A stretch of 64,000 nucleotides of DNA, from assembly GCA_009760855.2 (NCBI GenBank), contig WPIO01000023.1, positions 809,501-873,500 of the forward strand, in the 5' to 3' direction. The position numbers were made by a program, and so were the translations under genes. This document shows positions 36,001-45,000 of this stretch, piece after piece. A model generated the notes under the pieces. It was not told the origin of the DNA. It was given only the letters and a program-made list of their open reading frames with translations, and searched no databases. Position 1 is the first letter of the stretch. Every line of letters begins with the position of its first letter. The stretch comes from Cristatella mucedo. Taxonomy: Eukaryota > Bryozoa > Phylactolaemata > Cristatellidae.

Positions 36001-39000
36001 TAATTATTTAGGCTGTTGTAGGCTTACTTTTAACGCTCAATATGTATAGGACAACATTTGACACACCTCATCTCTTACCTCTGGAACAATATGCCTTGAA
36101 CTTAATATATCTTTTATAAGGCGGATGTGCTCAACTCCAAGTTTAAATTCGTCAAACGTTTTTTGTAGTTTGTTTTCTTTGATAAGGTGCTCAAACATGA
36201 GGACGGATGCTTCTTTTGGCTAAGGTAGAAAAACATATTAAACATTACTGTCATTTTAAAATTACTTTTGAAGTCAGCCGCATCAACCATAAGCCGAAAT
36301 AAGGAGACACACATGCCACGGCCATTATTTAAGGGGTTACTTAAAAAAATTAGAAATGCGGGGAAAACACATTTTTATGATCATTCGGCAAGAAGAAAAT
36401 ATAAACCATTGTCCTATTAATGGCAAGAAGCTATGAGTAAGTTCGGGAGTAGCTATAGGAGTGGAATTCGGAGTGAGTGTGTGACTAAGATTAGGAGTAG
36501 GAGTCCCTAGCAGTAGGAGTAGATGTAGGGAGGAGTAAGAGTCAGAATAGGAGTAGCAGGCAGTTAGAGGCTGTTTTGGGCGAAGGTTAATAGTAATAAT
36601 AATAATGCACTTTATAAAGCAACCTCAGATAGCTCAATCTTTTTTTAGGCGCTTTACATTTGCTTCTATCGATTGTGTCAGGCTTTAGCAAGCCCCGTGG
36701 GACCAAACAAAATAGCTAATTATAAGCCCTTAGCAATAAGAATGACTGGATATTGTGGAAACCCGGCAGCTAGGCTAATATATCGTTCTCATTTACGAAG
36801 GCTAAATCATTACTTCAGAGTATTACCTTCATATTACGAATTTCTCTAATCGTTCTCAGGTTGTGCTTCTAGTATACATTCTAACTGTTCAGAGACGAAA
36901 CCTACAATTTTCTGTGCTCCGAAGGCCAGGGATTCTCTTTCTGCTGGGATCGTAACACTTCGACACTTAAAATTAAAAGCAAAGCAGGACAGGTACCTGT
37001 TGCAAACAAATTTGCACGGTCCAATTAGTTCTTCCTAATATGTCAACTTTTGCTTCCACGAACTACATTAGGTTCACCAAACAGTTGGCGCGCTTAATTT
37101 TCAGTCATTTTCAGAGGACGCATAGAATAGAAAAGCATTTATTTTAGTTTCGTTACTGTGAAGATGTGTTTCTATTTGGATAATGTTGATGCATTTACCG
37201 AGTAAACCATGCCTGATCAGATATGTGAATGCCGACCTGTTTTCACTTCCTAAAAAAATAAGGTAATTAAACTTCTAGTTGAATTATCTTTCTTGCTTTC
37301 ATGCCAATCGCAACATCATCCGAGTAAACCTTTGAAAATTTTAATTTAATCATTAAAACTCAAATGAAGTAGGGCTGCATCTCTTTTTTGCAAATGTATA
37401 GGCCGGCTTTGATGAGGTGGCAGGGAGCTAAAACTCGAATCCTAGGTGTGATAAAAAGTCGAAGCCTGCTCTTTAAAATTCTTCCGTAAATAATCTTTAG
37501 CACCCATGCGATTATTATTGCTCACTTCAAGTTATGTACCACTGGAGAAATTGTGCTGGTTTAGATAAGATTTCACAGCAAAGCTGGTTCAAACATTTTT
37601 CGTGCCCAGCCTTTGGGACTTCGGTAGTGCGATACTTGATGTCTTATTTCATCTGCTGATAAGTGGCTTATAGCTGTTTTAAAACTCGGCAGCTTTGCTG
37701 GCATGTCATGAGATTATGAAAGTAGCAACTGCAATATTGCTCGATTGTTTACGAACTTGCCCCGGCTGCTCATCAGATAGGGCATCCACTTCGAAGTTTA
37801 ATCGCACGCTGTTTTCCATTTTCCGGCTAAGGCTTACTTATTAATTTGTTTTCCCTATGAGGGTTTCATCGTAAAACTCGGTCGTCAGATGGAAATCTGA
37901 CTTTCAGTTGCAACAGTAAGTTATCGGAAATTCTTTGGCCACGAGCCTCCAGTCTTAATGCTAGCGAATCCTGCAACTTATTGCAGAGGGATGTTTTGAA
38001 ATCATCCACTGACGTAATTATATCTGATAAGAAGCTAAAATTGAAAGCTTTACTAAGTTTTTTGTCTGCACGTACTTTGTTTGAAATTGGATACGTGCTG
38101 ACGCTAAGCATGTTATCGCTAATGGCCCCGAGTAATCTCTAGTATTCTCTTCAGGGTAGGATGCTTACTCTTCACGACTCAGGTCGGTTGGGGGTGGTGG
38201 TTTGAGTCCTACAGTGGGAGATCTGGTACTGCCCCCTCAAAGTGGTGGCGATAACAGGAAAGACTCTTCAAATGCTGTGCAGATATGGCTGTTGTATTGG
38301 TTATTTCTTGTCCTCTAACTTTTTTATAATTTGGATAGTAATTTGCTCAAATCTCTTGGGCTATATCCAAACGTATAACTTTTTTTGTATAGAAAAATCT
38401 TGATAATCAGGGCCTGCATAAATAGGTTTATGTCAGTAAACTTATTATTGGCTTATAGCGTAGTTTCCAGATTACTTGAATTCACTTAATTCAGGCCACT
38501 CACTACCTCAACTGCTCTCCTGACTCTGCTATGCTTCCCAATTTTTCTTCGTTGCGTGAGACGAAGTCTTTTGGCTATCAAATGCGTACCGATAGCCGCT
38601 TAGGCTGTGAGTGTGCTATACAAAACTCTCCTGCGTAATACCCACATGGTCTTTATGACTTTGTGGAATAACAGACAGAGATACATTACCTTACATTACA
38701 TAAGAGAGGGAAGAAATAATAGTGAAAAGAAATAACTTTGAGGTATGGCAAATGTTTCAAAAGTCCTTCAAAGACTTTCTATTCTCAAGAAACAAAATTA
38801 CCATCAAATCGACTAACTTTGGTTGTTCAAGTTCCTCTTAAGGAACTGTATGTGAAACACATGGAAACTAGAATCAAATGTATCTATTTCCGACCAGTTT
38901 CATCGACAAAATTCAGGGAGTTTACTGAGCAGAAATATACTCATAAATATGAATTTGGAATTCTTCGCCAAATTCTTTTCCAACGAAAGACGTTGTTAAG

Positions 39001-42000: not shown

Positions 42001-45000
42001 AAGACAAAGCTTCTGTCGCCAATCCATTTTAACCGGAGGAATGAAGCAGCAAATCTTGTGTCCATAGAGGATCTGATGGCATGAGGAGGCTGAAAGTGTT
42101 GCAGAACTTCAGCTAACTATGAAGAAACCAACCCTTGATGGATTGTATAGGTAAGCAAAAACCTTTGTTTGGTGTCCATTGGTCAACAGACATCAATCCA
42201 AGCGTGTTCAGCAAAAAAAAATAGATGGCAGCCTCTGAGATTTTTAAACTAGCCTTGCAGCCATATTCATCACCAGCTGCCACGGTCTATTCACTTTTCT
42301 GTAGATCAGACAGAAGGGAATTACAATGATCCATCTGAGACGGAACCAGGGAGATAGTTAACTTTTGCAAGCGACTTTAGAAGATAGTTCCCAATTCAGG
42401 TACGGATCAGATGACACGGAAAGTCTTAGAATCAGCCTTCTTAACGAGACTTTCAAAATTTAGGTATCTGCTTAAGACGAAACCTAAATGCCAAGCATGA
42501 GGTGATAGTCGCACACTAGCATCAATTATAAGAAGAGCAAAATCTTCTACTAGATCCACAGCCACAAGCGCAGATTGTCCTGTGAGCAGCAGTTCTGTTT
42601 TATTGTTGTTTAGTTTATTGAAAAGTTTGCCGACAGCCAGGATCGATTGTTTGAAAGCCATGCATTCAGTTTATAAGTCGCTGCAGCTGATTCAGACGGT
42701 CAATATTAAAAATAGAGCTGAATATCGTATATATAGAAGTGATTGCATATTCCATTGGGCCGTATCATTTTTCTTTTTTTACAGAAGTTGACTGTATATG
42801 CATTAAAGCAAAGGACTGAGGACCGAGCCTTGCGTGACTCCACAGGTGACTAGCCTGGTGGATGAGATCTAAGCTCGATACGACTCGGATCGAATATGGT
42901 TGGGCAGGCATGGTTTAAACCACGGCAGTGTCTGGTCTGCCACACTGTTGCTGTTCTCAATCTTTCAAGTAGCATATCGTGATAATTAATTAGTAGCAGA
43001 CTATGTTCAGAATCCTTGGAATGTATTACCGGTTTCGATCGACTTGAGAAATTATAATTTAACTTCATTAACTTCTACAAAGATGCAGCAGCAAACGCAG
43101 CAGACATTTTTATTATGGCCTTAATAAAGATCGGACGCAAAAGACAACAATATTAGTACTGTATGCCAAATGAGTAATGTTCAATACTTGTTAATTAGGT
43201 CATATGCCGAACTTTGCTTTTTGTGTATGGTATTTATTGCTTATCATACAATGCTGAGTAGTTAGCATTCCACCTGGTACAGCTTGAGTAGCTAACTTCA
43301 TATTTATTTAATGTCATAATATTTTGTCTGAAATTCCTAGATTCTCCTCTTCCACAGGCTTCGGTAAAATCAGAGTTCACTTGTGTCTGTTTTATTCAGG
43401 AAACCAGCATGAAACTGCCAAGCAATCAAGGAAAAGATAGTTTTAATTTTTAAGACGTTAATAATAATAATAATAATAATGTACTTGATAAAGCTCCCTC
43501 GGAGAACTTAATCTCTTTCTAGGCGCTTTACATTTGCTGCAAAGGGAAAAGTTCAATAAATCCTAATAAAAACACTGATTGAGTAATCCAGTATAATAGT
43601 TTGTAAATGCTCAATTTTTTCCCGTTTACTTAAAACAACTGCTGATTCCCTCGTTTATTGTTTTACGGTGATGATGTTTTTAAATGGCTTTTATTATGTA
43701 AACACTAGGCATTCAATCTTATTACTATATTAAAGCTCAGCTGTAATGGTTCACTGACTGGTAGACGATTGCTGAGACTCACTGGTTCTATTTAACTAAT
43801 ATGCAATCATTTCATTCCCTGTGATATACTGCAGTCATCATATCTCGATTAAATACAAAATTTTCCTGCTTTAATGTGTTATCTGCATATCCACGTTTCA
43901 TCTTGGATTGAAAGAGTAACACATGAATCTATTTCTATTGAGCCCTCTCACACTTCCGAAATATAGGAATAGGTCGTTTCCTGAATAGATTTTTGTAATA
44001 ACTTGGCGATCAGTTTAATGTCCGTCAAAATTCTATTGCTTAAGCAAAGCAGTGCAATTTCCATTTACACAATTCCACGCAATGTTTTACCCAATGCTGT
44101 GCTCAAATCGGTTGTGTGAAGCTCCAATAAATACACGGCAAGTGCCTCCAAGTTGCTTGATGTCTCGTAGTCCTTGGAACTCCGGAGTAACAATGATTTT
44201 GACCAGCAAAGGGTGCAGCTTGATATATCTATGAATCGGATCAGCCCAAAGCTAAAACCAGCAAGACATTTGAATAAATTTACTTATAAAATAATTATAA
44301 TACATAAATTTATTTTAATATTTGGTGTTAGTTTGGAGACAATCGTTACTCAACAAGCGAAACGGATATATTTGAATTTTCTAGTGGTTCGAAATTGTAC
44401 TTATTTTTAGCAATAGCATGCAATTAAAAATAAAATGTATGCATGCTGGAAAGAATCATAACAATGATAATTCATACTAACTTGATAATGCAAGTCAATA
44501 ACATCATTTCATTATGGAATGTAATTCACTTCCTTAACAGCTTATGTTATAGATGTTGATAAGTCGAGGCCATTCAATAAATAAACTCAGAAAAAGATGT
44601 AAATCGTTACCTAGCTGTGGACAGTTCATGGATGACTGGACAGGTGGTTGCTTAGTTTCTTCAACTGATTTTTGTAGCATAGTTTACTTGCCATTATATG
44701 CCCGGCAACGTGCCTCCAGATTGATTTTTACGGCATGCAATGAGCCGCTTTGAGGTCATGGGGAGATTCCTCCCGCATGTCCAGCACATGTTTCTACCAG
44801 ACTGAGTTTCGCACACAGAAACTGCTAGGGTACCGAAGGGGCAGCAGGAGCCAAACTAGAACCTTTTGCGTGCTGGTTTCCATAACCCATTACTGCAAAG
44901 ACGATGCTAATCTGGTGATAATTTATTAATTATGACTTTGGTAGGTCCTCTCATTGTTCTGTTGACCGATTGTCATTCGTAACGAGATTCTTGATGATTT

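Follow-up and report, generated by a model that had tools for sequence, protein, structure and literature searches.

The HD-domain protein SAMHD1 is a deoxynucleoside triphosphate (dNTP) triphosphohydrolase, and three histidines of its active site take part in the reaction. In the human enzyme, H215 serves as general acid, H233 coordinates the second metal, Mg3, and H210 contacts the alpha-phosphate of the substrate; replacement of H215 by alanine leaves no activity while a nucleotide analogue is bound as in the wild type, replacement of H233 lowers kcat about 300-fold with normal tetramers, and both mutant proteins are still tetrameric (Morris et al. 2020, PMC7311409). The equivalent of H233 is also reported to be needed for the dimetal centre of a fungal enzyme (PMC12042053). 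Can a SAMHD1 gene lose all three histidines and still be kept? Here we describe such a gene from the bryozoan Cristatella mucedo, the one genome on which the whole analysis rests. It lies on the minus strand of a stretch of 64,000 nucleotides (the window; C155:809501-873500, where C155 stands for contig WPIO01000023.1), and positions below are those of the window unless C155 is given. The gene is one of six SAMHD1 copies, called A to F, and is copy C among them. We lean towards the view that copy C encodes a SAMHD1-derived pseudo-dNTPase, which is kept by selection and would bind nucleotides without cutting them.

A first-pass annotation of the window had pointed to a SAMHD1-like protein in which the RFEH and CHD motifs are kept and three histidines are replaced. 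Both motifs are indeed present, in exons 1 and 2 (H167 codon 44101-44099, H206 codon 39510-39508 and D207 codon 39507-39505, minus strand). The motif after CHD, [10 protein letters not shown], contains Q210 and R215, and both this motif and the WS/PKE junction read as annotated: on the minus strand, H210 is replaced by Q (CAA, 39426..39428), H215 by R (CGT, 39411..39413) and H233 by P (CCA, 36217..36219, the first codon of exon 4), so that none of the three histidines of the active enzymes is kept. The same annotation regarded the metal-site residues as kept. This is right for the first metal, whose ligands H167, H206, D207 and D311 are all there, but not for the second, since H233 is the Mg3 ligand in the human enzyme (PMC7311409). 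With H233, a ligand of the second metal, replaced, copy C has a complete set of residues at the first metal site alone, and the second-metal ligand, the general acid and the phosphate contact are gone. Usual dNTP hydrolysis is thus predicted to be very unlikely, as had been suggested, with all three of H210, H215 and H233 replaced.

These replacements are not peculiar to one gene. The core protein, searched against the host assembly (572 Mb, 688 contigs), gave at least 31 exon matches, all on C155 within a 406-kb stretch (691-1097 kb), and the 31 matches make up six copies and one broken exon-7-like fragment; the proposal that copy C is a paralogue therefore holds. On the minus strand lie copies E (C155 ~722-683 kb), D (791-761 kb), C (854-804 kb), B (928-901 kb) and A (1023-964 kb), and on the plus strand lies copy F (1079.5-1100 kb). 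Copies B, D and F carry HGPFSH and begin exon 4 with H, keeping the three histidines, so that the second, HGPFSH-type SAMHD1 that the annotation proposed to look for does exist in the host. Copies A, C and E all read QGPFSR, and the first residue of exon 4 is P in C and E, alanine in A. As in pseudoenzymes generally, catalytic residues are replaced in one group while paralogues keep them. The two groups are also separated elsewhere: A, C and E share K200, V221, Q299, S303, F313 and S414, at each of which B, D, F and human have a different residue in common, and in exon alignments their exon 3 is longer by two residues and their exon 6 shorter by one than in B, D and F. In a protein tree A/C/E stand apart from B/D/F in 100 of 100 bootstraps, and identity between the two clades is only about 41-54%.

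The annotation had considered two ways in which the histidines might be missing in appearance only. Sequencing or assembly error at the three codons is very unlikely and was rejected, because Q210 and R215 recur in A and E and P233 recurs in E, and because the codon for R215 itself differs (CGT in C, CGA in A and E). Alternative exons that would restore the histidines were looked for by tblastn with the active-type exons 3 (of F and D) and 4 (of F, D and B) over C155:803900-862000, and apart from the Q/R exon (E 0.005-0.006) and the P exon (E 1e-4 to 4e-4) every match there was at E 0.13 or worse.

How unusual is such a loss? Among prokaryotic relatives, of which the best 80 of 92 were read, H stands at position 210 in 78, at 215 in 79 and at 233 in 77; all three are present in 76, one is lost in three, one sequence is gapped there, and no readable one has lost more than one. 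These relatives were selected with peptide patterns covering human positions 135-142 and 156-163, which leave the histidines outside and demand D or V at 137. A search of viral contigs gave no relatives. The same comparison removed two other candidate signs of loss: H370Y and Q375L were rejected, as Y370 is found in all six host copies and both residues are ordinary in the 80 relatives (Y in 54 and F in 11 at position 370; F in 47 and L in 11 at position 375).

Against this loss stands what copies C and E keep. We took fifteen active-site positions that do not vary among B, D, F and human; C and E both retain 12 of 12 positions of the first metal site and the substrate pocket (Q149, L150, R164, D309, Y315, D319, R366, Y374, H167, H206, D207 and D311) and 0 of 3 chemistry histidines. 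D309 and Y315 belong to the pocket. The remaining pocket residues are those named in PMC7311409 and PMC7045340, where position 319 is printed as Glu319. At the other invariant positions, C keeps 93 of 116 and E 90 of 116, and loss of the three histidines exceeds this background (Fisher p 0.010 for C and 0.013 for E, which are not independent of each other).

Selection acts on these genes. Pairwise ratios of nonsynonymous to synonymous divergence (dN/dS) were calculated by the Nei-Gojobori method with 1000 codon bootstraps per pair, and are 0.336 for C-E (95% bootstrap 0.24-0.45; 393 codons, dS 0.93), 0.322 for A-C (314 codons, dS 0.89) and 0.341 for A-E (318 codons, dS 0.64), to be compared with 0.429 for the active-type pair B-F (381 codons, dS 0.44). 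A ratio of 1 was reached in 0 of 1000 bootstraps for each of the four pairs. In a codon model, dN/dS is 0.44 on the A/C/E branches and 0.30 on the B/D/F branches; fixing the A/C/E branches at 1 costs 26.2 log-likelihood (lnL) units, and fixing the C branch alone (0.27) costs 3.9 (p about 0.005). The model values for the stem (0.07) and for the internal A-E branch (7.4, the upper bound, or 0.25 under one constrained fit) should not be relied on. Between the two clades, synonymous sites are saturated. Copies C and E are thus kept by purifying selection, dN/dS = 1 being rejected, and the suggestion in the annotation that selection maintains the gene is borne out by values of 0.32-0.34 within A/C/E.

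From these observations the following course of events may be drawn. The ancestor of A/C/E would have lost H210, H215 and H233, and with them the phosphate contact, the general acid and the second-metal ligand, and the clade would have been maintained by selection since before A, C and E split, while C and E retain the deoxynucleotide pocket and the site of the first metal. Because pocket and first metal are kept and the chemistry residues are lost, binding without cutting suggests itself: the copy C protein would fold like SAMHD1, hold one metal and be able to bind a (deoxy)nucleotide, and would be unable to split it in the way of SAMHD1. Such a protein might serve, for example, as a nucleotide-responsive adaptor or a nucleotide buffer beside the active-type copies B and F. 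That C and E are SAMHD1-type proteins unable to run the SAMHD1 reaction is very probably true, and they probably do some other job than dNTP destruction.

Several points weigh against binding without cutting. In the human enzyme H210A disrupts catalysis, and its crystal is reported without nucleotide in the catalytic site (PMC7045340); because of this, Q210 could weaken binding in copy C as well. For the 12 binding and metal positions, retention is no more than suggestive (p 0.08 for C and 0.06 for E, again not independent). An equal dN/dS value for both clades costs 2.7 lnL units, so A/C/E are somewhat less constrained than the active-type clade. Finally, the reading frame of copy A is broken by one base within a run of A in exon 4 (C155:1000702-1000820), and this copy carries the change D311V, a loss of a first-metal ligand (C155:996130-996279). 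Copy A may be a pseudogene, or the frame break an assembly error, and it may represent a decaying member of the clade.

If nucleotides are bound, could they also be processed in another way? In the main rival to binding without cutting, copy C has changed its chemistry: a one-metal HD site of the H...HD...D type, as in the monophosphatases YfbR and OxsA, would use R215 and Q210 for another reaction or substrate. Copy C does show H...HD...D without the second-metal histidine, C and E retain H167, H206, D207 and D311 as well as the pocket, R215 is unchanged across a synonymous codon change, and the described enzymes fit the pattern, since YfbR and OxsA are reported to be without the H233 equivalent (PMC12186264) and YfbR to hold one metal with H33, H68, D69 and D137 (PMC8177086). 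Nevertheless, unless copy A is a pseudogene, its D311V change would be fatal to an enzyme of this type, no substrate is indicated, and the likeness to YfbR and OxsA is one of motif, so that changed chemistry is a reading we consider rather doubtful. Persistence of ordinary dNTP hydrolysis, in which other residues would have taken over the part of the three histidines, is what we would expect least of all: the pocket and the first metal site are intact in C and E, but alanine at H215 or H233 singly abolishes or strongly reduces the human activity (PMC7311409), the H210A change disrupts catalysis too (PMC7045340), and all three are gone in copy C.

The annotation had proposed another role, control of an active partner through mixed tetramers. 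In this scheme C and E would enter mixed oligomers with active-type copies and damp or tune them; active-type B and F are indeed encoded in the same array, the human H215A and H233A proteins still tetramerise (PMC7311409), and copy E retains all of D137, Q142 and R145 of allosteric site 1. In copy C the same three positions are V, Q and R, two of three being kept, and among its other allosteric residues K354 is Q and R372 is D. D137, which reads GTP in allosteric site 1, is D in E and N in A, and R372 is D in all of C, E and A. The clades are in addition only about 41-54% identical. Control through joint oligomers appears rather improbable, and for copy C the allosteric residues weakly disfavour the role proposed earlier. 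This residue test is weak in both directions, because K354 and R372 vary widely among the 80 prokaryotic relatives and E keeps D137; position 137 itself is D in 76 of the 80, where the selection pattern allowed only D or V, and V in copy C. As for decay, a pseudogene that has not yet gained stops might be suspected from its surroundings, as copy A has the exon 4 frame break and D311V, a broken exon-7-like fragment lies at C155:877876-877974, and copy D has irregular splice sites. However, C and E are without stop or frame break in exons 1-11, the C-E dN/dS of 0.34 has an upper bootstrap limit of 0.45, neutrality of the C branch is costly as described above, and an assumed neutral divergence of 0.3-0.45 per site should have produced 17 to 26 stop-creating hits over the 410 codons of C, where none is seen. 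Pseudogene status is unlikely for C and E, and as an account of copy C we give it little credence.

The gene model of copy C was built by tblastn with human SAMHD1 and by scans for short splice-compatible exons. The annotated span, 36079-44251, holds only exons 1-4; the gene runs from 44251 to 8961 within the window and continues beyond it. The annotation's reading of ten exons with intact frame, phases and splice sites stands except for the count, which is 11 in the window and at least one outside: the model has 410 codons and no stop, each of its 10 introns is GT-AG, and the phases agree. The exons all lie on the minus strand; tblastn and the gene model place exon 1 (44091..44251; human ~117-169, with H167), exon 2 (39501..39616; H206 and D207), exon 3 (39354..39430; QGPFSRLFD), exon 4 (36079..36219; beginning PKEAS), exon 6 (31792..31959; D309, D311, Y315 and D319), exon 7 (22500..22591; R366 and Y374, with R372 as D), exon 9 (11436..11634) and exon 11 (8961..9059), after which at least one more coding exon follows, a tblastn match at C155:804127-804017. 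Exon 5 (35663..35707; 45 bases, ending NFLYQ) came from a pattern search and a splice-compatible scan, exon 8 (16861..16914; 54 bases) from such a scan together with matching exons in paralogues, and exon 10 (9155..9232), whose 5' boundary is the least certain of all, from tblastn and the scan. Homology to SAMHD1 covers the HD domain and the following lobes, and 189 of 398 aligned residues (47.5%) are identical to human SAMHD1. The latter was also found by a sequence search of the PDB (phmmer E 3.5e-90), along with Rhizophagus irregularis SAMHD1 (9mr6, E 7.2e-60) and Caenorhabditis elegans ZK177.8 (6pwy, E 8.8e-26), the query being the exons then known, without exons 8 and 10.

Upstream of 44251, tblastn with human residues 1-118, Pfam on the three minus-strand frames of 44252-53899, and comparison of open reading frames upstream of C, E, B and D gave no N-terminal exon and only chance or transposon-like matches. 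No SAM domain of the mammalian type was found for copy C by tblastn or Pfam, the 5' exons of the gene being not located, and this domain is reported to be usually absent from SAMHD1 outside vertebrates (PMC12042053). Transposon-like open frames lie at 46733-47329, which has no Pfam match, and at 25755-26514, and minus-strand frames near 46.4-47.5 kb have similar ones upstream of neighbouring SAMHD1 copies. Intron 1 contains long pentamer arrays at 41416-41857, in which CATTA gives way to about 50 copies of CCGTC and these to CATTG/CATTA, and the intron after exon 11 contains about 34 degenerate copies of CCCTAAA, the telomere-like TTTAGGG repeat, at 1708-1954 (71% matches). In the other copies, B (exons 1-11) and F (exons 1-9 and 11) have no stop and have GT-AG ends in the modelled exons, F exon 10 being outside the model. 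Copy D keeps the three histidines, and its splice sites are irregular or damaged, the donor GT being missing where exon 1 should end and GC standing at exon 2 (C155:789.3-791.1 kb). Because of the frame break, exon 4 of copy A enters none of the counts; exon 9 of this copy is short, its acceptor being uncertain, and exon 11 was not found when paralogue exons were modelled. The exon-7-like fragment mentioned above lies just beyond the window, alone, and is 64% identical to exon 7 of copy C; AT-rich sequence replaces its 5' part, and it is a remnant of a further copy.

What do these genes add to what is known? Functions of SAMHD1 beyond dNTP destruction are debated, largely from engineered dead mutants. 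A natural lineage without the chemistry residues, constrained about like its active-type neighbours (0.34 for C-E and 0.43 for B-F in pairwise comparison), would speak, as independent evidence, for uses of the fold apart from that chemistry. With C and E next to B and F, a single genome offers material to learn what such uses are. We tentatively raise a further possibility, that in the Q/R/P clade a former dNTPase has naturally become a receptor for nucleotides, or else a one-metal HD enzyme that carries out a new reaction; its deoxynucleotide pocket and one metal would have been kept and the three histidines replaced, followed by duplication and retention for a separate function beside active-type genes. 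No natural SAMHD1 lineage without these histidines was found in the titles and abstract openings returned by searches of open-licence literature, which does not by itself prove novelty, and the SAMHD1 distribution section of PMC12042053 (4,466 sequences) mentions none.

HD domains without hydrolase activity in paralogues and engineered dead SAMHD1 mutants are already known. RelA, the partner of SpoT, is a paralogue with a divergent HD domain and no hydrolase activity, which its relative keeps (PMC8177086); RelA acts through a second, synthetase domain, whereas no further domain was found in the copy C model. As a separate observation, the assembly contains around C3:432383-432682 a 660-amino-acid open frame of the bacterial RelA/SpoT type (TIGR00691, 542.5 bits), which may come from a bacterial contig, a symbiont or a transferred gene. 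The monophosphatases YfbR and OxsA resemble copy C in having H...HD...D without the H233 equivalent (PMC8177086, PMC12186264), but belong to another HD branch and fold context. The SAMHD1 triphosphohydrolases themselves (human, ZK177.8 and 9mr6) are closest, sharing with copy C the sequence family, the first-metal ligands and the pocket residues, while in copy C H210, H215, H233 and D137 are replaced. The engineered human H215A and H233A proteins, of which H215A binds a dNTP analogue (PMC7311409), are changed at two of the three positions concerned; they are single mutants made in the laboratory, whereas the changes in copy C are natural, combined, common to paralogues and kept by selection.

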